A stretch of DNA of 64,000 nucleotides, taken from Paludibacter sp. (GTDB lineage: Bacteria; Bacteroidota; Bacteroidia; Bacteroidales; Paludibacteraceae). Location of the stretch: NCBI GenBank assembly GCA_031292575.1, contig JARLGX010000005.1, forward strand, positions 62,001 through 126,000, in the 5' to 3' direction. Position numbers and translations under genes: made by a program. Positions 7,933 through 62,860 of this stretch are shown here, piece by piece (positions within the stretch are counted from its first letter, which is position 1; each line of letters begins with the position of its first letter). The notes under the pieces are model-generated. The model did no database searches, had not been told where the DNA came from, and saw nothing but the letters and a program-made list of their open reading frames with translations.

Positions 7933-9609
7933 TCAGTTTTTTGCAAAAACTATTACTTTTTCTCCAATTTTGACTTTGTTGCCTGTTTTATTGTTCCATT
8001 TTTTCAAATCGTCAACTGTACACCCATACTTTTTAGCAATTGTGTAATAGGATTCGCCTGACCTTACTTTGTGCTGAATAGTTACTGGTTTACTATCAGG
8101 TTTAGTACTTGTACTTTTAGGTTCATCAGATTGAGTCAGTTTTAATTTTTGACCGAGTTGAATCTTAGAATCGGTCAGATTATTGATTTTCATCAGTTCA
8201 TCAACTGAAATATTGTTATTTTTGGCAATAGTAATTAGAGTTTCTCCTTTTTTTACTTTGTGTTTTATCCCTTTTTCAGAAATTTCAGACTTATTATTTT
8301 GCTGTTTATCGGATTTGTCGGCAATGATATCTTTTGTTTTTGGCTCAACGTCCTGAGTTAATTTTAGTTCTTGTCCGGGTTTTATCTTTGCATTTGGAAT
8401 GTTATTAATCTTCTCCAATTCGGCAACAGGAATATTATATAATTTTGAAATACTATATAATGATTCCCCTGAAATTACTTTATGTTTTGTAGTTTTTTGG
8501 GGCTTTTCTACTTTAGCCATTTCAGTTGTTTTGGCTGGTTCAGCTTCTTGATTTATTTTTAGCTCTTGACCCGGATGAATTTTTCCTTTTGGGATGTTAT
8601 TTATCTTTTTCAATTCATCTACCGATGTATTGTATAATTTTGAGATACTAAAAAGTGTTTCTCCTTTTTTTACAACGTGAGAAGTATTTTGCTGTTTGTT
8701 AGATGTTTCAGTTTTGTTTAAAGTGGTTTTATTGTCCGCCAGATTCGAAGAATTATTGATGGTGGTTTTTGCATCTTCAACTATTGTTTCTTCATCTTTT
8801 ACTTTTAATCGTTGTTTGAGTCGTAATTTGTTACTGGTTATGTTGTTTTTTCTCTTTAGTTCAGTTATGGTCATTCCGTATTTTTGAGCTATTGACGAAA
8901 GTGTTTCACCTGATTTTACGCGATGATATTCTGCTGGTATTACTTTCTTTGTTTGTTGTGCCGGTTCAGAAGGCTGTATTTTTGCATAATTAGCCACAAA
9001 AGTTTGTTTTGGTTTAGGGGTTTCGGATTCGCTCTTGAAGCTTTTAGACAAATTATGAAAAATTGTCAAAATTGGATTGGCCACAATTACCCTACTCGCT
9101 TTTAGAAATCGTTTGGTATAATACGCTTCTGTTGAGCTTGAAATTGTTACCCCACTATGAACCGCAGCGTGAATAAAATTAAATTCTCCATTTCCCTTTG
9201 CTGCAACAACAATTCCCACGTGTCCCACTTGTTTACTTCGATGCCGGCCGGAGAAGAAAACCAAATCACCAACTTTTAAATTACTGCGGTCCACCGGTTC
9301 GAATTGATTTGCTTGTTCTCTGGAAGAGCGATCTAAATTATATCCAAAATTTCTATAAACATAAGAAGTAAATCCGGAGCAATCAAAAGAAGACGTCCCC
9401 GGAGAGCCATAATGGTATGGAGTGCGCAAAAATAACTTGCCGTAATTTACAAGAGAATCACTTAATGAAATCTGATTTGAAGCTCTATAATTATTTATTG
9501 TAGAATCGGGTAAAGATGCAAAAACAGGTTCCGAGTACATTTCTGCAATCGAAAAAAATGTAAAAAAGGAAAAGACAAAAAGTATTTGAAAATGTTTTTG
9601 CAAAGACAT
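7933..9609 (-). CDS. NlpC/P60 cell-wall hydrolase with five C-terminal LysM repeats
   Basis: DCSGFTSYVYRNFG and HVGIVV catalytic motifs, then five LysM units (VKSGETLSSIAQKYG, VKKGETLFSISKLYN, VISGESLYSISKLYN, VKKGETLITIAKNNN, VRSGESYYTIAKKYG). Confidence 0.92.
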   Translation of the reverse strand: MSLQKHFQILFVFSFFTFFSIAEMYSEPVFASLPDSTINNYRASNQISLSDSLVNYGKLFLRTPYHYGSPGTSSFDCSGFTSYVYRNFGYNLDRSSREQANQFEPVDRSNLKVGDLVFFSGRHRSKQVGHVGIVVAAKGNGEFNFIHAAVHSGVTISSSTEAYYTKRFLKASRVIVANPILTIFHNLSKSFKSESETPKPKQTFVANYAKIQPSEPAQQTKKVIPAEYHRVKSGETLSSIAQKYGMTITELKRKNNITSNKLRLKQRLKVKDEETIVEDAKTTINNSSNLADNKTTLNKTETSNKQQNTSHVVKKGETLFSISKLYNTSVDELKKINNIPKGKIHPGQELKINQEAEPAKTTEMAKVEKPQKTTKHKVISGESLYSISKLYNIPVAELEKINNIPNAKIKPGQELKLTQDVEPKTKDIIADKSDKQQNNKSEISEKGIKHKVKKGETLITIAKNNNISVDELMKINNLTDSKIQLGQKLKLTQSDEPKSTSTKPDSKPVTIQHKVRSGESYYTIAKKYGCTVDDLKKWNNKTGNKVKIGEKVIVFAKN

Positions 9610-39963: not shown

Positions 39964-42234
39964 TTATTTTACCATGATTACAATATCCTGTCTTCTATTT
40001 TCAGGAATTATTGAAACCACCCGCACTTTCCCATCCTTCAATTCAGCTTCTACAGTCGTATTTTTTGGCGCATGTAATTTAAAATGTACATTCCAATCTT
40101 TTGGCCATGCCGGAAAAAGAAGGATTTTGCCATCGTCGGTGGTTTGCAAAAGCATTTCCTGCAAACCAATCATGCCACTGCCTCCCCAATTGCAATCGGG
40201 ACTCCAGTCGAAACCGGGACCCCAGAATGCAGGAAAACGGTACGGTCCGTTGGCAAGTTTCAGCGAATTTAATCGTTTGGCTTCGTCGGTTAGTCCGAGG
40301 CAGGCTGCAAAAATATTATCCTGTTTCCAACCCACATGACTTCTGAATTTTTGAACATCAGGATCGTAAAGATAGGTATTTCGGGCAATTTGCAGACTAT
40401 CTTTCCCCACTCCAAAAATATGCCATGGAAACACCGGATAAAGCTGGGGTGCTTCTGTATTATTCACCCTTTCCCATGTTTTGGCTGGTGAAATCATCGT
40501 TTTTCCATCAATAATTCTCAATGGTATTGGTGGAATGGTTTTGAGCAAAGAATCATTGCCCAATGTTTTCAAAATGGTTTTCAATGCAGCAATTGTACTT
40601 GCCGGATTATTGGCCATTTTATATGTTTCACAAGCCGAAGCCGGAAAAAGGATTAAATGTCCTTCGCCATCCAGCGTTTTCCGCCCCCGATGTTGTGCCA
40701 GATAGCGGTAATGTTCGTCGAAAAAGCGGACACAACTTTCAATCAGCGGTTTGTATTTCGCAATATCAGCATTTGCATACTCTTTCGTTTCCAGAATCAT
40801 TTGGCAGATTTCCAGTGCCGTATCCCAGGTATACTCTAACCACGCGTTGTATTCAACTCCTTTGTCAAAATAATCAGGGCGTTTCCAACCGTATTCGCTT
40901 GGGTTGGGCAACCCGAAATTCTCAATCTGTTCCGTAAAGCATGCCCCTTGATGATTCCAATAAATTTTAGAGCGAAGTTCGGCATTTTTCAAAATACGAT
41001 TGTAAAACTCAAATTCAGGAATCATCATGTCGAAATCACCCGATTTCAACATAGGCCAGTAAACCAATCGTTGATTTTGCGCAGTAAAAGTGCCACCTGT
41101 CCAGCGACGGTAATCGGGTGTAAATGCCAGCTTTGAATCAACAAAAACCGGATCGAAAGTAAACAGTCCTCCGTTGAAGCGGGTAGGCCAACCGCTGTGG
41201 GCATTACAGCCAAGCATATAACGAAACAACGTGTAATTCCGCGAAAGATTTGCAGCTTCGCCGTCGATATGAATAAAACTGCGGTTCCAAAAATCATTCC
41301 ACCAGACAACAGATTGTTTCCCGTCGATTTTTGTGTTTATCTTTTCAATTGTTTTATTTAAAGCAGATGTCCATTCGCTAATATTTTTATCCTGTGAAAT
41401 TTGCAGAGCAATTTTTAATTCCTGTTTTTTAAAAGGTTTTTTACTTTTGAAAATCCATGCTTTATAATCAGTTCCTGAATAAATCCCCTTTTCAGTACGA
41501 TTGAAAATCAGATTTTCGCCCCACATTTTTCCCCCTGAAGTGAGTTGGCAAAGAGGATTATATAGTTGAGGTTTCACACTTTCGAGTCCTTGCTGAGCAA
41601 CGGTTATATCAAAAATTGTCTTTTCGGAATTTCGGTGAAAAAAAGTAACTGAATTCTCCGTAGTCGAAATTGAATCTTTCCCTGTAACAAGCCCTTTGGG
41701 AGGAGACCATTTGTAGGATCCCTGATCTCCTTCCCCTTTTCGGATTATTCGGTCAGCATATCGCCAGTTTTCATAACTAATTTCTGACGTAATTTTCTTT
41801 TTGCTTACAATTTCAAAGTGAATAACCGGCTTAAAAACATCTGCCCAAAGTTGAATGGTAATTCCATTGGCTGAAAATTCAACATAACCATCGTTTAATT
41901 TCAAAGTCTGACGGAAATTTGTTGCCTCGGTGAATGGATTAGGTGAAAGACGCACCCTGAAACGCCCTTGTTTAAGCATGGTATTATTTTCATCGAAAGC
42001 ACCACTTTTACTGACGTAAAATAACAAATCACCATTTTCCACCCACACATTCATGCCGATATCGCCGCCACCACAGGGCATTGATTCCGATGAATTGTGA
42101 GATGGGGAAGTCCATGTGTAATCTGGTTCTATAGCAAAAGCAGAGGAACAGACTAAAAAGAGGAAAAAAAGAAGAACCCCTAACCCCTGAAGGGGAACTA
42201 ATTTAGCTTTGCTTTGTATTCTTCTCATATTCAT
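39964..42234 (-). CDS. DUF5703/GH95-like glycoside hydrolase (six-hairpin fold)
   Basis: SHNSSESMPCGGGDIGMNVWVENGDLLFYVSKSGAFDENNTMLKQGRFRVRLSPNPF; C-terminal EMLLQTTDDGKILLFPAWPKDWNVHFKLHAPKNTTVEAELKDGKV. Confidence 0.7.
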   Translation of the reverse strand: MNMRRIQSKAKLVPLQGLGVLLFFLFLVCSSAFAIEPDYTWTSPSHNSSESMPCGGGDIGMNVWVENGDLLFYVSKSGAFDENNTMLKQGRFRVRLSPNPFTEATNFRQTLKLNDGYVEFSANGITIQLWADVFKPVIHFEIVSKKKITSEISYENWRYADRIIRKGEGDQGSYKWSPPKGLVTGKDSISTTENSVTFFHRNSEKTIFDITVAQQGLESVKPQLYNPLCQLTSGGKMWGENLIFNRTEKGIYSGTDYKAWIFKSKKPFKKQELKIALQISQDKNISEWTSALNKTIEKINTKIDGKQSVVWWNDFWNRSFIHIDGEAANLSRNYTLFRYMLGCNAHSGWPTRFNGGLFTFDPVFVDSKLAFTPDYRRWTGGTFTAQNQRLVYWPMLKSGDFDMMIPEFEFYNRILKNAELRSKIYWNHQGACFTEQIENFGLPNPSEYGWKRPDYFDKGVEYNAWLEYTWDTALEICQMILETKEYANADIAKYKPLIESCVRFFDEHYRYLAQHRGRKTLDGEGHLILFPASACETYKMANNPASTIAALKTILKTLGNDSLLKTIPPIPLRIIDGKTMISPAKTWERVNNTEAPQLYPVFPWHIFGVGKDSLQIARNTYLYDPDVQKFRSHVGWKQDNIFAACLGLTDEAKRLNSLKLANGPYRFPAFWGPGFDWSPDCNWGGSGMIGLQEMLLQTTDDGKILLFPAWPKDWNVHFKLHAPKNTTVEAELKDGKVRVVSIIPENRRQDIVIMVK

Positions 42235-42293
42235 AATCGTTGATTTATAATGGAATGAAGTAATTATATGCCCCTTTAGGGGTTAGGGGTCAT
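42174..42293. repeat. Paired inverted repeat (REP/MITE-like), copy 1
   Basis: Arm 42174-42206 gaacccctaacccctgaaggggaactaatttag; opposing arm 42271-42293 cccctttaggggttaggggtcat. Confidence 0.8.
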
Positions 42294-43744: not shown

Positions 43745-46700
43745 TTATTTAGTTATAAAAGTCAATGGTCCAATTAGTCCTGCTTCCAGCAGTTTATCTT
43801 CACTCATGCGGTATTTGCCGTTTGTCCAGATTCCGGGAAATGGTGGTGTACCTTTATCTGAACCATTTATTGCATTTGCCCAGGTGTTGGTCACTTCAAT
43901 TTCGAGTGAATTTAAACCATTTTTCAGAGCTTTGGTTATGTCAACCTGATAAGGTGTTGTCCAAGCCGTTCCACAATCAATGCCGTTAACGCGAACAGTT
44001 GCCAGATTACAAACTTTCCCTAAATTCAGGTAGATTTTGTTCAATTTAGAATCTGCATTCCAATTAAAACCGCTTTGATAAATGGCTGTACCCGAATAAA
44101 ATTTAATCAGCGGATTTGCACTTTTACTCCAGTCGAAAAGCTGGTTTGATAGTTCCGTTTGATTATTTTTCAAGAAAGAGACATTCCACTTTCCGTTAAT
44201 TTCAAACGGTTTTGTGACAGCATTTGTTGGCTGTTCCACAACATTCGGTTGATTTGTTTTATTGCTGAAAACAACAAAAACAGATTCGTAAGGGGCTAAT
44301 GTAAGTTTCATCGAAGTTCTTCCTGATGTCGATTTCCAACTTTCAGGGGATGTAATTTCAGCATTAACCGGATTCCATAACTCCGGTGTTTTTCCAACGA
44401 TCCGAAATGATGCATCAAAGTTTCGTGTATTATTTTCCTGATTTGAAATAAAATAAATATCGGCTTTATCGCCCCGACGATGCGTCCACGCTATTTGTTC
44501 CGGCACAATCACATCCATTTCAATCCCATAAGCCGAGAAATCATTGGCTGTAAAAGGCAAGGTTGGAATAATCACGCCTGCCTTTTCTAACTCATTTATT
44601 TTTGCCTTAACTTCAGCCGAAAGTGGTACATTGTCGGGATTCATTGGGTTCGACAAAGGCAATACGAGCACTTTGTACGAAGCTCCACCGGGCAACACCA
44701 ATCGTCCGTTTTTGGCCTCAGCCAATCGTAGTAAAGCATCCTTATTGAACGAGTCGTAGGCATATCCCCGCAATGGGTTAATCCATTTTTCGGGTTCAGC
44801 CATGTTAGCTGAATGATGAACTCCGGCTGGCATTTCACATTGCGGCTGGCCTTCATTCTTCAGCCGGATGCGTTCACTTTCCACGCGTTCCGCCCCGAAA
44901 ATTCCGGGAAGTGAAGGTACAAGCCGGTCAGGCAAGATGGCACGGCGCGGAATTTCTTCACCCGTAAATACAGCAATGTCAGCAACCGGATGACCATATT
45001 GCAACATAGCCTGGCAGCGGGTTACATAATCAACCCAAGCTTTGCCCGATTTCCACCAGGTTTGATCACGCTGAAAATAGTGACCAATTCCATCTAAGGT
45101 AACTCCCGGCGCACGATCCATATACGGATTGTGTACAAAAACATGAAAGAAAACTTTATTGATTCCCAATGCAAAATTACGGTCAAGAACCGGTTTTAAC
45201 AGAGCTGGATCTTCATCCCAATTAACCCTCAATTCTGTGAAACTTTCACATTGAATAATATTTTTACCATAAATATGGGCTCCACTGATGGCATCGAGCA
45301 TGTCGTTGGGCTTATCGTGAGTAGGACTGCGTAACCAAAACTCGCCCATTGGACGATCGGGTATTTGGAAGTGCAACATGCCATCGCTCACAAAAGTTGG
45401 AGCTATACATTCATTCGACGTTTCGCACCCGTAAGCCTTGGCATTTTTCTGCATAACTTTGAAAAACACATCCACCACTAGTTCGGAAATAGTCGTCCGC
45501 ACATCGCGCAAAACTTTCTCCGAAACTTGTACATTCTCAATCGGATAACCTGCCAATAATGGCAAGTATGGCATTAAATCGTAACCACGCCGGGCTTTAA
45601 ATTCGGTAGCAAAATTACTGCTCCAGTTTTGGCTGCCACATTCCCAACTGTCGATGTGCATAAATTTCAGTACCCGATGCGCCAATGCCGAGTCGGTTTT
45701 GGCAAAAGCTGCCCCAAACCAATTGTCGAATTGTTTTTGCACTGCTGTCTCTGAAAATTTATCGCATTCAAGTCCTTTTGCCTCACCACCGGTTGCATTG
45801 GTTTGTCCAGTGGAAGTATGTCCCATGCGCAAAATCCGCCAAGTGCCACGCGGAAGATTACATGTGAGGTATCCATCTTTAAAAGACGAAGTTAGATTTA
45901 TGATTTTATCTTTTGGCGTACAATCTGAAGTTGTGATTTCATGCGACGAAGTTTCGTTTGCTACACGCCAAACAAGTCCGGCTTTGCCTTCCCATTGATT
46001 AATTCTGGGGGTAGAACTCAACTTAATTTCTTTGATTTTCAAAGTCGGTTTCCATTTGGCAGCGTCCAAATCTTCGCTTCCGGGCTCAGTTCCAACAGGA
46101 GTCCAGGATAAGCGGAAATAACTTGCTGTGGTAGGTGTAACACTGAACGTACTGTTGAATCCCGTGTTTTGCCAACCCTGACGGGCAGGAATAAGCAGTT
46201 TGACTAAGTGGAAATTTACCCCATCATCACTGGCTGAGACGGCAAGTCGCTGCGACTCAAAATTATTTCCTGTAGGCGTCAGCTCTATGCTTCGCAAGGT
46301 AAAAGGGCTGGTATAGTGATACTCAAGATAACACGGTTTCGACGCTTTGAAATCTTTTCCGGGGATGGAAAACGGAATGGAGTCATCAGGATTGTCAGAC
46401 TTTACTGAAAAATCATCCCTTGATTTTCCGAAAGAGGCGTTAGAAACCGGAAGTGCATAGACAGCAATATCATCGTAATAGCCCTGATAAGATTCAGGAA
46501 TTTTGATTTTCAAATTATTAATTTTTCCTCCGGCAATAATCGTATCAGTAAATACCACTTTTTGCATGGACTCCTTGGGCGTAATCCACGGTCCGCCGGC
46601 TAAGGCAAAACCATCTGAAACATGCATACCAAGTTTCAACCCGAGACTATCAGCTTCCTGCATGCTGTAACGCACCATTTCCCACCATTGGGGTGTCAGT

Positions 46701-47008
46701 TGCGAAACGGCGTTCGGATAAGTTCCATCAACACCCCGTATTGTCATTAAATATGCACCTCCCAAACCGATTTGCTTCATGGCTTCCAAATCGGCTTTGA
46801 TACCGGGCTTGGAAACTGCACCATGCATCCAGTACCAAAAAGTCCAGGGTTTGGCTTCGACAGACGGATGATTGAATTGGTTGTAAAGAGAAGGTTGGGA
46901 AAAAGAAAAAGTTGAAATAAATAAAAACAGAAAAAGAACAAAAGAACCCCTAACCCCTAAAAGGGAATTGAAGTTACATTTGTCTATAATATTTTTTTTT
47001 TCTAACAT
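43745..47008 (-). CDS. GH106-like alpha-L-rhamnosidase
   Basis: FNHPSVEAKPWTFWYWMHGAVSKPGIKADLEAMKQIGLGGAYLM; HIDSWECGSQNWSSNFATEFKARRGYDLMPYLP; FTELRVNWDEDPALLKPVLDRNFALGINKVFFHVFVHNPY; C-terminal GH2-like sandwich. Confidence 0.85.
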   Translation of the reverse strand: MLEKKNIIDKCNFNSLLGVRGSFVLFLFLFISTFSFSQPSLYNQFNHPSVEAKPWTFWYWMHGAVSKPGIKADLEAMKQIGLGGAYLMTIRGVDGTYPNAVSQLTPQWWEMVRYSMQEADSLGLKLGMHVSDGFALAGGPWITPKESMQKVVFTDTIIAGGKINNLKIKIPESYQGYYDDIAVYALPVSNASFGKSRDDFSVKSDNPDDSIPFSIPGKDFKASKPCYLEYHYTSPFTLRSIELTPTGNNFESQRLAVSASDDGVNFHLVKLLIPARQGWQNTGFNSTFSVTPTTASYFRLSWTPVGTEPGSEDLDAAKWKPTLKIKEIKLSSTPRINQWEGKAGLVWRVANETSSHEITTSDCTPKDKIINLTSSFKDGYLTCNLPRGTWRILRMGHTSTGQTNATGGEAKGLECDKFSETAVQKQFDNWFGAAFAKTDSALAHRVLKFMHIDSWECGSQNWSSNFATEFKARRGYDLMPYLPLLAGYPIENVQVSEKVLRDVRTTISELVVDVFFKVMQKNAKAYGCETSNECIAPTFVSDGMLHFQIPDRPMGEFWLRSPTHDKPNDMLDAISGAHIYGKNIIQCESFTELRVNWDEDPALLKPVLDRNFALGINKVFFHVFVHNPYMDRAPGVTLDGIGHYFQRDQTWWKSGKAWVDYVTRCQAMLQYGHPVADIAVFTGEEIPRRAILPDRLVPSLPGIFGAERVESERIRLKNEGQPQCEMPAGVHHSANMAEPEKWINPLRGYAYDSFNKDALLRLAEAKNGRLVLPGGASYKVLVLPLSNPMNPDNVPLSAEVKAKINELEKAGVIIPTLPFTANDFSAYGIEMDVIVPEQIAWTHRRGDKADIYFISNQENNTRNFDASFRIVGKTPELWNPVNAEITSPESWKSTSGRTSMKLTLAPYESVFVVFSNKTNQPNVVEQPTNAVTKPFEINGKWNVSFLKNNQTELSNQLFDWSKSANPLIKFYSGTAIYQSGFNWNADSKLNKIYLNLGKVCNLATVRVNGIDCGTAWTTPYQVDITKALKNGLNSLEIEVTNTWANAINGSDKGTPPFPGIWTNGKYRMSEDKLLEAGLIGPLTFITK

Positions 47009-47053
47009 ATGCAGAATAACTAATTTAGTTCCCCTTTAGGGGTTAGGGGTCAT
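46944..47053. repeat. Paired inverted repeat (REP/MITE-like), copy 2
   Basis: Arm 46944-46975 gaacccctaacccctaaaagggaattgaagtt; opposing arm 47018-47053 aactaatttagttcccctttaggggttaggggtcat. Confidence 0.85.
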
Positions 47054-49905
47054 TTAAACTTCAACACAATTCTTCCTGTTTGTTCACCGTCCACCCATTT
47101 TGGTTGGGCTGATGGCCCGTTTAAATCAGTTGAATTTACTTTATTTCTAACTGGTGGAATTACATTTAAAATTGAAATTCCGCTTTCAGGCAACTTATAG
47201 AGCAAATTATCGCGACCGTCACGTGGTTGGTAAACGCCAACATACGTATCCGGTGTTTCATTGGTAATGCTTATTTCACCTTCCGAAGTTTTCAGGGTCA
47301 TCCAGCTTACATGGGCAAAATAGCCTTTAAATTCGGGATAATCGAATGATTCACCTGGAATGGGATCATTGTATTTATTTTCCCATAAATCGTAAACCGG
47401 ACCCTGGGTTCGGTTTTGCCATACCCGATACGGACCGTCGCCCAACCAGCGTTTACTTTGAACTTTGTCTTCAGGATAATCGAATTTTATTCCCATCATA
47501 TCTACCACTGCACTGAAATTATAGCTGTAATCCAACGTCATTGTTCCGTTGGGAGCAATCGTCCATTGTGCTTTATCCATATTTCCAAGTTTATAATTAG
47601 CAGTTACAATCAGGTTTTTACCATTTTCTTTTATATCAAATCCGGTAAAAACAGCTGCATCGGTAAATTCCGTATAAGTACGTTCTTTCGCTTTTGCATC
47701 CGGATCGTCATGGTTGTAGAACTGATCCAATGAACGGTCGGCTCGGCGAGCCGCAAAAAAGTGAGGTCCGTTGGCAAAACTGATTTCACGTCCACCAATC
47801 GAAACACCTTTCAGTTCGCCATCTTTTTTGCTGAAAGTAATTTTCTCATTTGCTGCAGTAATAATCAATGATTCAGAAGTTGATTCCTGAGTCGGAACCG
47901 GACCTTCAATGGTTGAACTTTGTGCCGGTTTTTGAGCCGGTATTCTGAACGACCAACGCCAAAGTTCTTCACCACGATAATCAATAGCCGTAAGAAATAA
48001 TGCATCGGCTTGAGGGTCAATAGTCGTATTCAAATTGAGTTTCCCGGCTGAATGTGCCACAATATCCGAACCATTCACTTCGCCTTGTTTCAACACTTTT
48101 ACTGTTCCTTTTTCGTCGGAGGCAGATGGAAATTTCACCTGTTTCCACACAAAACGGCAAGTATTTATGTTCAGAAAATCATACCGGTTCTCAATATTGA
48201 AAACTCCGTTAAAAGTGGCATCAATACTCTTTTCAACCACCTGCACCGGACACCAGACTTGTTTTATCGTAAAATAGCTTCCCTCTTTTTCGTGATGCGG
48301 ACCTACAATTCCATCGCAAGCCCAATTTCCCTGGTTATCAATAAATCCGTTCATATCCACACGCTTTACACCTTCGTCAATCAAGGCCCACAAAAAACCA
48401 CCGGCACACCGTGGATGTTTCCGCATCATTTCCCAATAATCGTACAATCCGGCACCCAATCCGCCATCATACAATCCATGTAAAAATTCGGTTGGCATAA
48501 AAATTTCCGGCTTGCGCAAATAATCTTCTGTTTCGCCGTACGAGCGGTAATGCATGGTTTCAAATCCTCCGAAATTTCCCTGAGGATGAATAACAGGGCG
48601 GTGCTGCACATCGTATTTCCAAAATTCTCCATTCAGTTCGTTGTTCCAACCGCCTTCGTTGCCGTTACTCCACCAAATTACACACGGATGATTCACATCG
48701 CGCTCCACCATTTCTTTCACCAGTTTTATCCCCGTTGGGGTATCGTAATGTCCGTGCCACCCCCCCAGTTCATCCATCACATACAGTCCAAGCGAGTCAC
48801 AAGCATCCAAAAAATCAGGATCGGCAGGATAGTGTGAAAGGCGTACCGAATTCATATTCATACTTTTAATCAAAAGTACATCTTCAATGTTTTTTGCCTT
48901 GGAAAGTGTCCGGCCACTTTCAGGGCGGAAACTGTGGCGGTTCACACCTTTTATTAAAACTTTAACGCCATTGATATACAAACCATCACTTGGACGAACT
49001 TCGATGGTGCGAAATCCGAATTTATCGGAAACCTGATGTAAAACAGTACCATTTGCGTCGAGTAATGAAACCTGAGCAGTATAACGGTTTGGAGTTTCAG
49101 CAGTCCAAAGAAGTGGATTTTTTACAGACAATTCAGCTGTTGCCCAATCACTTCCTTCTTTTACCGAAGTAACGGATTCAGCCACTTGCTTGCCTTTTGC
49201 ATCGAGGATAACAGTTTTTATACTTGCTTTTTCAATGGCTTTATTCAATTGACAATTCGCCTTGAAAGTTCCATCGGCATGAGCATCAATGGAAAACTGT
49301 TGAATATTAATTACAGGCATTACTTCAAGAAAGACCGGGCGGAAAATCCCACCAAAGTTCCAATAATCAGCACGGCGTTCAGCCAGATTTACGTTTGGAT
49401 CGGCACTTTCTTTGTTTACCGTCACTTCCAGTAAATTTTTCTTTCCATATTTTACTCTATCGGTTATGTTGTATGAAAAACGATAAAATGCACCCTGATG
49501 CATCTGACCAGCTTTCTGACCATTGATTTTTACCTGTGTATCCGTCATCGAAGCCTCGAAAACAATGTTTATCTGTTTTCCCCGCCATGCGGTCGGAACT
49601 TCAAATTCATATTTATACATGCCGGTTTCATTGGCAATACCTTCGGCAGTAGCTTTTCCGTAAAATTTCATTCCATACTGATATTGCCCAAATCCCTGTA
49701 ATTCCCAACACGAAGGCACTCCAATTTTGGTCCATTTGCCGGAATTCATTCCTTCGGTACAAAAGAAATCCCATTGCACCATATCATCGCAACCGTGCCC
49801 TGAAAGGTAAATACGTTCGGTTGTTAGTGTTGACTTTTGAGCAAAAATGGAACTGATTGGGGAACCAAAAAGTGTAAAAATCAAAACAAATTTTAAATAC
49901 TTCAT
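47050..49905 (-). CDS. Glycoside hydrolase family 2 protein
   Basis: RYKFEVP-type jelly roll start, [68 protein letters not shown]. Start at MKYLKFVLIFTLFG (49905) preferred over the track start. Confidence 0.9.
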   Translation of the reverse strand: MKYLKFVLIFTLFGSPISSIFAQKSTLTTERIYLSGHGCDDMVQWDFFCTEGMNSGKWTKIGVPSCWELQGFGQYQYGMKFYGKATAEGIANETGMYKYEFEVPTAWRGKQINIVFEASMTDTQVKINGQKAGQMHQGAFYRFSYNITDRVKYGKKNLLEVTVNKESADPNVNLAERRADYWNFGGIFRPVFLEVMPVINIQQFSIDAHADGTFKANCQLNKAIEKASIKTVILDAKGKQVAESVTSVKEGSDWATAELSVKNPLLWTAETPNRYTAQVSLLDANGTVLHQVSDKFGFRTIEVRPSDGLYINGVKVLIKGVNRHSFRPESGRTLSKAKNIEDVLLIKSMNMNSVRLSHYPADPDFLDACDSLGLYVMDELGGWHGHYDTPTGIKLVKEMVERDVNHPCVIWWSNGNEGGWNNELNGEFWKYDVQHRPVIHPQGNFGGFETMHYRSYGETEDYLRKPEIFMPTEFLHGLYDGGLGAGLYDYWEMMRKHPRCAGGFLWALIDEGVKRVDMNGFIDNQGNWACDGIVGPHHEKEGSYFTIKQVWCPVQVVEKSIDATFNGVFNIENRYDFLNINTCRFVWKQVKFPSASDEKGTVKVLKQGEVNGSDIVAHSAGKLNLNTTIDPQADALFLTAIDYRGEELWRWSFRIPAQKPAQSSTIEGPVPTQESTSESLIITAANEKITFSKKDGELKGVSIGGREISFANGPHFFAARRADRSLDQFYNHDDPDAKAKERTYTEFTDAAVFTGFDIKENGKNLIVTANYKLGNMDKAQWTIAPNGTMTLDYSYNFSAVVDMMGIKFDYPEDKVQSKRWLGDGPYRVWQNRTQGPVYDLWENKYNDPIPGESFDYPEFKGYFAHVSWMTLKTSEGEISITNETPDTYVGVYQPRDGRDNLLYKLPESGISILNVIPPVRNKVNSTDLNGPSAQPKWVDGEQTGRIVLKFK

Positions 49906-50049
49906 GCTGTTTGAGCGTATTACATAAATTTTATCAAATGTCATTTTCAAGACGCAAAAAAGGAATATTTGTACCCATCTGAACGAGTACTGAAAACCTG
50001 AAAAACGAGTCTGATTATCAGTTTTTGAACAATAAGCAAAACTACGTAA

Positions 50050-59858: not shown

Positions 59859-59973
59859 ATGACCCCTAACCCCCTGAAGGGGAATTGAATTAGTTTCGTC
59901 AAATTTGATATTCATTTCATTAAGCCTATAAATTGCAGGATGCAAATATTCCCCTTTATGGATTAGAGGTCTA
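59859..59973. repeat. Paired inverted repeat (REP/MITE-like), copy 3 (one arm degenerate)
   Basis: Arm 59859-59894 atgacccctaaccccctgaaggggaattgaattagt; opposing degenerate arm 59949-59973 ttcccctttatggattagaggtcta. Confidence 0.75.
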
Positions 59974-62709
59974 ATAAAACATCCAATCCATAGTTTCTTC
60001 ATCGCCTGCACCAACTAAACCCACATTACGAGCTGTAATGTTAGCCGAAGTAAAGCCAAGAACCAAACACAAACCTTTCGGTAACAAAAGTTTATTGTCC
60101 CCTGCGTTGAAACTGTAAGTATGTACATTAACTGCCGGCAGATTATCTATTTTCAACGCGTTCATCAAAACCGGATCGGCCTGACCATATAAGTTAGCAC
60201 CGGCATCAGTTTCCAGCATTGGAGCTTTTGCAAATTTTTTCTGATCATCCTTGAAAAACCCTACCAGTAATTTAACCGGTTCTGCATTTGAAAATTCTAT
60301 CGTTGTCCCTTTATCTGACTGAGTTTTTGAGTTTAGCAAACAAGCATTCATTCCTATAAGTTCGGGTGCAATTTCTTCCACATCCGATTTGAGATCGCTG
60401 TATAACGAAACGCCGGGAGTAAGCTTTAGAATTGGAAAATCACTGATCAATTTAATATTCGCAACGGGTAAAGCTGAAATTACAACCGGTTTTTGTATAC
60501 CTCCGTTCAGTTTTGATTTCAACAAAGCCAGATTGTTTTTATAATTCACCAATTCCTTTTGATAATGCACCAACATCTCTGCCCATGTTTTATTTTTTCC
60601 GTTGTCGCCACCAATCGGAATGCGGCGTTGTGAAGTTTGCATACTGTTTGCATACAAGTAAGTGTTTTTAGTCAAATCGACCAGTTTGCTATAATGTTCC
60701 AGGCTTTTTTCCAAAAATGGAACGGCAGCATCCAGGCTTTTAATATTTTTTCCCCATTGGTAATCAAGCACCAATTTCGCAGCTTTTACTTTGTTGTTGA
60801 AGAAATAAGCAAATTCCCTGTAACAATGCATATCGTTGCGCAACCGCTCAAATTCAGCTTTATTTTTAGTTACCTTCCCTTCTACCGAATCGATGGCCGA
60901 CTCTGCTTTGTCGCCGTGAGCAATTACCTGAGCTATAATATCGAGTGGCAATTCCCCTACATGAGGTTGGTGTTTCCATTCTTTCTCAACATATTCAATC
61001 AATTTTTCGCCAACAGGTCCACAACTTTCGTAAAAACCGGGGTAAATCTTGTATTTATAGGGGTTAACCAACTGGCTCATAAACATACCAAGTAATAACG
61101 TCTGGCGATTTCCCTCTGTAATTCCGAACCGGCGGATTAATTTTGGCGCAATTTCACCCGACTGATCGTAAGCTTCTTGTATTTTACGTGCATCACTGTC
61201 ATTAATTCCATAGTAATCGGCTAATTGCTGATCCCAATAATTAATTTCGTCCTTTCTGTCTCGATGACAATTCCAAGCATAACGAGCCCATGCTTTAGTC
61301 CACATCCAGTCACGGTCAATTTGTTTCAGGCGAGCACCATTTGGCAATTTATCTGCCGTGTAAGGGTAATCCCAATACGAAGCCTGAGGGTATAAATGCA
61401 GTCCATTGGCACCCTGAATATTGTGCATGGCAATTACGGCTTTTTGAATAAATTCGGGAGAACTCCAACGCCACGGCTCCAAATTAGCCATAATATGAAC
61501 ATTGCTGATAAAAACAGGTCCGAGTTTACTCAAATCCCTGTCGGTTTTCGACCAGGGACCACCGGGTTGATAGGTTGTCAGACTTTCGCCGGTGTATTTG
61601 TTCATCGTGTACAGGTTTTTATACAATGGCTTTGCTGCTTCAATATCCATTTTAGCATCCGTGTCGTGTGCACGAAGAATGATTGGTGGTTCATCGGTAC
61701 GACCCAAGGCTTTCAGACCATCTTTTATGCCGGGGATAATGGTTTTCGTAAACCAGTTCACATCATCCTCGTACGTATCCATGGCTTCTCCAAGCGTAAT
61801 CAAAAAACCTATATTTGGATATTTTTCAACAAAAGCGGCAATGCTTTTTCTGGTATAATCACTGATCAAAGGTGTAATCGGGCGATTTCTATCCTGCGTT
61901 TTAATGCCGTAATGTTCGGCAAACGGTTTGGAAACAATAATGTTGTAAAACATTTGTATTACAAAAATTCCACGTTTATCAGCTTCTTTGGTCAGGAATT
62001 TATAGATTTCCTCGTTCTTTTTAAATGTTTCCTCGCTCACTTCCACAGCAAACGGATAATCTTTCAGCCGTACCAACGAAGCAAACGGGTGGCCACTCCA
62101 AAGGTAAAGCGTGTTCATGCGATTAGCCACCAACATATCAAGGTATTGAATCCATTGCTTTTTATCGTAAAACCATGGAAAAGTTTCGGGTGTATAAGGA
62201 TATTCATACACCGTGCGACCGGGCAGGTAAGTCGATTTTTGCATGCCAATACACGTCCCGCGAAGCACCATTTCGGGAGCATCGGTCAATGAAGCCGGCA
62301 AATCCAGTTTTTTCTCGTTTTGCAAACGGTCTATAATTTCGCGGCAACCGTAAATCACCCCATTGCCATCGGTGCCACAAATAAGGGTGGTATTTTTTTT
62401 AGTAGAAATAAAAAAACCTTCCTTCTTCATCGAATCGGGCAACTGGACTTTAAGCTTTTTCAATACCTGTTTTAATGCAGGATCGTTTTTTTCAAAAGCC
62501 AGCATGTATTTTTCATTTTTATTGAATTTCTTTATTTCTGTTTTTGAATTTACCTCAAAATTTTTAGACTGAAGTGACTTACTCAGCATATTCGCTGCAA
62601 ACTGTACACGGTTTGAAGCAGTAGGAGAGATGATAAGGTTAATTGTTTCACCGTATATGATCCCCGAAAATATCAACAAAAAAAATAAAACTAACCCTTT
62701 CAATTTCAT
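59971..62709 (-). CDS. Putative alpha-uronidase (GH67/GH115-like or GH138-like architecture)
   Basis: N-terminal GH20b-like alpha/beta domain (TINLIISPTASNRVQFAANMLSKSLQ...YMLAFEKND...GVIYGCREIIDRLQ), then TIM-barrel-like region (LVANRMNTLYLWSGHPFASLVRLKDYPFAVEVSEETFKKNEEIYKFLTKEADKRGIFVIQMFYNI). Start at MKLKGLVLFFLLIFSG (62709) preferred. Confidence 0.55.
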   Translation of the reverse strand: MKLKGLVLFFLLIFSGIIYGETINLIISPTASNRVQFAANMLSKSLQSKNFEVNSKTEIKKFNKNEKYMLAFEKNDPALKQVLKKLKVQLPDSMKKEGFFISTKKNTTLICGTDGNGVIYGCREIIDRLQNEKKLDLPASLTDAPEMVLRGTCIGMQKSTYLPGRTVYEYPYTPETFPWFYDKKQWIQYLDMLVANRMNTLYLWSGHPFASLVRLKDYPFAVEVSEETFKKNEEIYKFLTKEADKRGIFVIQMFYNIIVSKPFAEHYGIKTQDRNRPITPLISDYTRKSIAAFVEKYPNIGFLITLGEAMDTYEDDVNWFTKTIIPGIKDGLKALGRTDEPPIILRAHDTDAKMDIEAAKPLYKNLYTMNKYTGESLTTYQPGGPWSKTDRDLSKLGPVFISNVHIMANLEPWRWSSPEFIQKAVIAMHNIQGANGLHLYPQASYWDYPYTADKLPNGARLKQIDRDWMWTKAWARYAWNCHRDRKDEINYWDQQLADYYGINDSDARKIQEAYDQSGEIAPKLIRRFGITEGNRQTLLLGMFMSQLVNPYKYKIYPGFYESCGPVGEKLIEYVEKEWKHQPHVGELPLDIIAQVIAHGDKAESAIDSVEGKVTKNKAEFERLRNDMHCYREFAYFFNNKVKAAKLVLDYQWGKNIKSLDAAVPFLEKSLEHYSKLVDLTKNTYLYANSMQTSQRRIPIGGDNGKNKTWAEMLVHYQKELVNYKNNLALLKSKLNGGIQKPVVISALPVANIKLISDFPILKLTPGVSLYSDLKSDVEEIAPELIGMNACLLNSKTQSDKGTTIEFSNAEPVKLLVGFFKDDQKKFAKAPMLETDAGANLYGQADPVLMNALKIDNLPAVNVHTYSFNAGDNKLLLPKGLCLVLGFTSANITARNVGLVGAGDEETMDWMFY

Positions 62710-62860
62710 ATTTAAATAACTAATATTCCACCTAAAAATAACAACAGAAAGACGTAAAAAACGCCCTTCTGTACTCAACTTCTTTCTATTATGAAATCAA
62801 CAAAACCAGTGTTTGATAAATTACTTATTCGAGTATTTATTCTCACTTTAAAAATTTAGT

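Follow-up and report, generated by a model that had tools for sequence, protein, structure and literature searches.

The exported GH106 alpha-L-rhamnosidase encoded in the window (the whole 64-kb stretch of Paludibacter sp. DNA that was analyzed) very probably begins with repeat-derived sequence. Judging from sequence comparison, a pair of palindromic repeat arms at the junction with the preceding tandem gene appears to have replaced the native start and n-region, the front part of the signal peptide, and with similar confidence we regard the repeat as one that has spread among, and is tolerated at, operon junctions. The features of the junction, in window coordinates, are as follows.

43745-47008, minus strand: GH106 alpha-L-rhamnosidase ORF, 1087 aa (ORF list and Pfam)
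46895-46945, minus strand: hydrophobic core and Q-rule-like cleavage region (between SFVLFLFLFISTFSFS and Q), not repeat-derived
46946-46967, minus strand: downstream arm, TTCCCTTTTAGGGGTTAGGGGT, in frame, read as SLLGVRG (GH106 residues 15-21)
46968-47028, minus strand: AT-rich spacer of 61 nt, with the GH106 ATG (47008-47006) and leader codons MLEKKNIIDKCNFN
47029-47050, plus strand: upstream arm of the pair, outer tail towards the GH2 gene, its end overlapping the TGA stop
47050-49950, minus strand: GH2-type glycosidase ORF, the upstream neighbour, whose stop TGA (47050-47052) touches the upstream arm

The minus-strand ORF at 43745-47008 matches Pfam GH106 (PF17132, E 2e-160), and its N-terminus, from the ATG at 47008, reads MLEKKNIIDKCNFNSLLGVRGSFVLFLFLFISTFSFSQ. 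By inspection only, this has the Sec layout of a basic n-region (MLEKKNIIDKCNFNSLLGVRG), a hydrophobic core (SFVLFLFLFIST) and FSFSQ; the Q-rule used for the cleavage region is taken from PMC5837995. The initial annotation had placed a repeat arm in frame within the signal peptide, which is borne out at residues 15-21. Its coordinates, 46944-46975, do hold the arm in frame and were slightly off, the repeat core being 46946-46967 within CNFNSLLGVRGSF at 46940-46978. It had also named a single Met before the hydrophobic core, and 47008 is indeed the only ATG, GTG or TTG ahead of the export signal: there is no other between the upstream in-frame stop and the core, none within 60 nt past the arm, and none anywhere between the arm and the mature protein. 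A downstream non-ATG start (GTG or TTG), sought specifically in this gene, is thus absent.

The GH106 gene was compared across 11 loci of the genus, our own and ten at 58-73% identity, and the same GH2 gene precedes it in all 11. In five of these loci (our own counted) the arm pair is present and one arm falls in the n-region of the signal peptide, where it encodes SPLGVRG, SPLGARG, PLQWLG or SPLWVRG; three of the five (L081, L083 and L084) carry two successive arms. In the remaining six the arm is absent and the starts are unrelated, mostly ordinary basic ones of the MKKLKL or MKHFKS type (n-regions MKKLKLLFLLVSVVGWVAAQ, MKHFKSILIVQFILITGLSSIGAQ and MQRLRSFLIVGILM); they share no more than the mature protein and the surroundings of the cleavage site. 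The tree requires at least two changes. Since the pair is present at some copies of the GH2-GH106 junction and absent from others, and the cleavage region and mature protein persist in both, the comparison argues that the arm replaced the start and n-region. The proposal that the repeat gives start-proximal codons and the n-region is thereby supported by orthologues of both kinds, the repeat-free starts having turned out unrelated rather than the same.

The repeat has a 22-nt core with consensus TTCCCCTTTAGGGGTTAGGGGT. Copy numbers given genome-wide are from pattern searches, and gene contexts are from the stretches around repeat sites only. An exact match to CCCCTAACCCCT is found at 52 places in the 3.46-Mb genome and a match to the reversed control at none; for a longer 21-nt form at up to 3 mismatches the corresponding numbers are 141 and 1. 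At up to 4 mismatches, and within the stretches around repeats, we counted 131 arms in this genome and 95 in that of P. propionicigenes WB4 (G016), a culturable strain with a closed genome of 3,685,504 bp (PMC3072083). Adjacent arms no more than 220 nt apart form 87 couples, 75 of them with the tails outward (45 in this genome and 30 in G016), and the spacers of these tail-out pairs are mostly 50-100 nt. Unpaired or decayed arms are also numerous. At least one near-exact copy, and up to 119, was found in 29 of 35 sampled genomes of the genus besides the source genome, in 2 of 24 genomes belonging to other families of the order, and, counting any copy, in 9 of 396 genomes drawn from across the phylum; these nine include the source genome, and the other eight have one or two copies each. 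Matching DNA in named genomes came from Paludibacter, uncultured Bacteroidales and Bacteroidetes MAGs. Literature searches on the motif, or on PLGVRG as a bacterial tag, returned nothing relevant.

The pairs are placed in a regular way. In the two genomes, 61 of 75 link a gene's 3' end to the 5' end of the gene that follows; two are convergent and none divergent. One arm adjoins the stop codon of the upstream gene or provides it; the second arm is found immediately ahead of the downstream ATG or within the downstream ORF. For about half of the 3'-side arms a stop codon falls in or directly against the arm, and those of the -15 class read ...TPNP-stop (ten in this genome, eleven in G016). On the 5' side a native ATG follows the arm at 67 arms, and elsewhere the ORF reads through it. 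Read-through ORFs with an ATG 29-50 nt before the arm number 37 in the two genomes, 31 of them with the ATG at -37 to -44; not one of the 67 other 5'-side arms combines an ATG at -62 to -25 with a frame open through the arm. An in-frame ATG within 60 nt past the arm is lacking in 26 of the 37 genes and present in 11, some of which may therefore start there. At many junctions the repeat would supply the downstream start codon and the first ~20 amino acids. Leaders follow the pattern MNNKNIQDETNF(S)SPLGVRG, as in MNNKNIQDETNFSSPLGVRG, and those with C as the loop base end instead in ...TNSVPLQGLG. Six more junctions in named Paludibacter or Bacteroidales MAGs have the ATG at -41 (five) or -38. 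Upstream genes also often end in an arm with ...TPNP-stop, so that C-termini are tagged too (for example L018, L019, L023, L026, L030, L035, L037, L038 and L044).

The arrangement is not limited to exported proteins. Most of the 37 leader-bearing genes are for cytosolic enzymes, including tryptophan and nitrogen-fixation genes and RsmH; by resemblance the set comprises trp-operon members, NifB-like and other nitrogen-fixation-like genes, RsmH, MurI-like and CysH-like genes, ABC transporter subunits, lipoproteins and glycosidases. Database searches confirmed the names TrpB, RsmH, transaminase, GH106 and DUF5703, and the other gene names are motif calls by eye. Two further pairs lie in the window.

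42176-42197, minus strand: second example, downstream arm, in frame (PLQGLG frame) at the N-terminus of the DUF5703 gene 39964-42234, whose ATG (42234) is in the spacer
42269-42290, plus strand: second example, upstream arm, 9 nt from the end (42300) of the upstream SASA-esterase ORF
59863-59884, minus strand: third example, arm directly followed by an ordinary ATGAAAAAAATATATTTACTG signal-peptide start, the native start being kept; this arm is most likely untranslated
59949-59970, plus strand: third example, upstream arm, adjoining the stop of ORF 59971-62778

On exit the arm has one frame that is nearly always free of stops. Among 180 non-coding arms this frame is stopped in 5 and the other two frames in 155 and 139; read from the opposite side the arm supplies stop codons. 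The preference for the open frame among copies called as ORFs stems partly from the ORF definition itself. The loop base is C rather than T in 12 of 12 copies in the PLQGLG frame versus 15 of 177 others; we set this aside as a signal, because T at that position makes a stop and such a copy would never be called an ORF, which renders the comparison circular. The Arg is retained in 6 of 6 exported tags versus 13 of 18 others, a count made by eye on too few cases to weigh.

Independent cases were found in several other proteins. Homology to solved structures begins at residue 23 of TrpB, directly past the tag, and homology of RsmH begins at residues 24-27, again directly past it. Among 30 TrpB loci of the genus, 18 show the tag or remnants of it, and the starts of the other 12 are short, as in MDYSIDNNGYYGNFGG; orthologues at 86-95% identity differ in having it, well-supported branches of the tree force at least five tag changes, and the join between tag and native sequence differs among species. 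The P. propionicigenes protein (L109) has the tag MNKEKDMQNETNSNSPLGAGG. The palindrome is nearly gone from the TrpB tags SSTSGMLGGAGLEL (L129, genome G022) and SSPSGRLGGAGLEL (L133, genome G021), apparently old insertions kept as ordinary coding sequence. In a WecE-like transaminase (L022, 2381-2502) a whole arm pair is in frame and adds 39 residues (162-200); in the solved relative 6blg the positions on either side of this insert follow each other directly. An ABC-transporter-ATPase-like gene (L019, 10821-10842) has two in-frame arms, one N-terminal and one internal, before the nucleotide-binding loop. A trp operon (L041, 2527-14017) has the repeat at most of its junctions, and most of its proteins begin with a repeat-encoded leader.

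Translation from the loop ATG, spread by insertion and near-neutrality are what we infer from these patterns. Initiation would occur at the ATG in the loop between the arms, and the ribosome would leave through the downstream arm, using the one frame that is routinely open there (..NFNSPLGVRG), before it reaches the codons of the hydrophobic core. The n-region could consist of the charged leader together with the Arg of GVRG. In exported proteins signal peptidase should remove the leader along with the rest of the signal peptide; in cytosolic enzymes the tag would remain as an N-terminal extension. The repeat would in this way end the upstream gene and restart the downstream one with a tolerable leader, and it may be tolerated at operon junctions because it has stops in two of three entry frames, an open exit frame and an unpaired start codon between the arms. 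A broader statement, which we offer tentatively as less likely than not, is that the element is mobile and works as a cassette for starting translation, made up of a stop side, an ATG-containing initiation region and an exportable or tolerable peptide. By spreading between tandem genes it would have given dozens of proteins of one genus a new start and a tag.

Whether the repeat is merely tolerated or is kept since it benefits downstream expression, as a portable and adaptive translation-start cassette, is the closest alternative; a host benefit is possible, although we consider selection for it rather unlikely as the explanation. Leader-bearing copies are alike beyond what leader-less ones are, both in the 24 nt after the ATG (z 16) and in the 40 nt before it (z 10), while the similarity of leader-less copies is lost more than 20 nt from the arm; this likeness could, however, reflect descent or A-rich codon bias. 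The cassette recurs at most junctions of the trp operon described above, and the L109 TrpB tag holds PLGAGG while its DNA palindrome erodes, yet orthologues manage without the cassette and coding arms show no excess of synonymous change over non-coding arms (5/35 vs 47/237).

It is also conceivable, but improbable, that the arms form an RNA control element, in which pairing in the mRNA would place the start codon in a loop and control translation or stability; that the arm also encodes SPLGVRG would then be incidental. At the GH106 junction the two arms do fold together as a 23-bp helix (-48.9 kcal/mol, z -7.2), and in leader-bearing copies the ATG lies in the middle of the loop. Inverted copies of any one repeat pair well by descent, however; substitutions mirrored in the partner arm number 9 against 9.0 expected from shuffled partners, the pairable fraction of arms does not exceed that of shuffled ones, and the many single or decayed arms speak against such an element. 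Rfam gave no family at the gathering score, only sub-threshold chance hairpin matches. That the GH106 start is simply misplaced, with a native start downstream and an untranslated arm, is highly improbable given the start-codon scan of this gene and the 26 of 37 leader genes described above, although non-translation was suspected by Di Nocera and colleagues for many N-terminal REPs (PMC3733652) and is probably true of some copies here (59863 in the window and L025 2425, with a native MKK start right after the arm).

Our preferred reading, replacement of the GH106 start by a tolerated repeat, has precedents in several known systems. Rickettsia palindromic elements (RPE) are likewise palindromic repeats in frame in functional genes, at N-termini and inside enzymes (PMC10969869, PMC3733652), as are the copies at the TrpB, RsmH and GH106 starts and the 39-aa transaminase insert. 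The host phylum is different, however, the sequence is set apart by eye, and the Paludibacter in-frame copies are mostly at the gene start, bring a start codon and are matched by a mirror arm at the stop of the upstream gene. REP, BIME and REPIN sequences with their RAYT share the 22-nt palindromic core, high copy number, inverted doublets, location next to genes and stops for flanking ORFs (PMC3733652), and our repeat has both their 20-40 nt palindromic unit in high copy and their frequent inverted doublets. Its conserved end is instead TTAGGGGT, without the GTAG/CGTC tag. Y1 transposases are widespread, occurring in 33 of 40 genomes of the genus, and a RAYT was considered as the cognate enzyme; the three PF01797 genes of this genome have no arm in the ~3.2-3.3-kb loci around them, and G033 has 15 arm matches and no PF01797 match, and we therefore name no cognate enzyme.

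As in MITEs, there are terminal inverted repeats (the 22-nt arms) within a total of 70-300 bp, and the spacing of the pairs fits this; no target-site duplication was seen, flank matches being 2.25 vs 2.20 for shuffled partners. In Yersinia a 168-bp MITE (RU-2/YPAL) forms part of the predicted signal peptide of YPO1552; according to the excerpt of PMC2229807, the MITE-encoded segment there is the hydrophobic one and the protein is putative and new, whereas in Paludibacter the start codon and n-region of a conserved enzyme were very probably replaced, repeat-free orthologues exist and many cases are cytosolic. Correia elements (NEMIS) and ERIC are also small inverted-repeat elements translationally fused to genes, though of other sequence families, and regular tandem-junction placement with a start codon is not described for them in that excerpt. 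The phenomenon is real, known in kind and unusual in degree, with RPE, N-terminal REPs of doubtful translation, REP-supplied stops and the Yersinia signal-peptide MITE all published. Within the literature searched, the novel points are the repeat family, its host group, the regular start-codon-bearing use of junctions, and the repeat-free orthologues that show replacement directly.

The GH106 gene offers a clear case in which a conserved enzyme would have had its start codon and the n-region of its signal peptide replaced by repeat DNA, and orthologues that lack the repeat serve as controls. It also takes protein-decorating palindromes beyond Rickettsia, to free-living Bacteroidota. Since the repeats occur in the culturable type strain P. 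propionicigenes WB4, the tags can be searched for directly by proteomics. Caution is warranted with N-terminal extensions and start calls in this genus, which may be repeat-derived. Elsewhere in the window, a perfect 31-bp inverted repeat with a 6-nt loop (2664-2731) is unrelated to the arms, and three diverged direct repeats of ~77 nt (8180-8673) within ORF 7933-9609 are probably repeated small protein domains.
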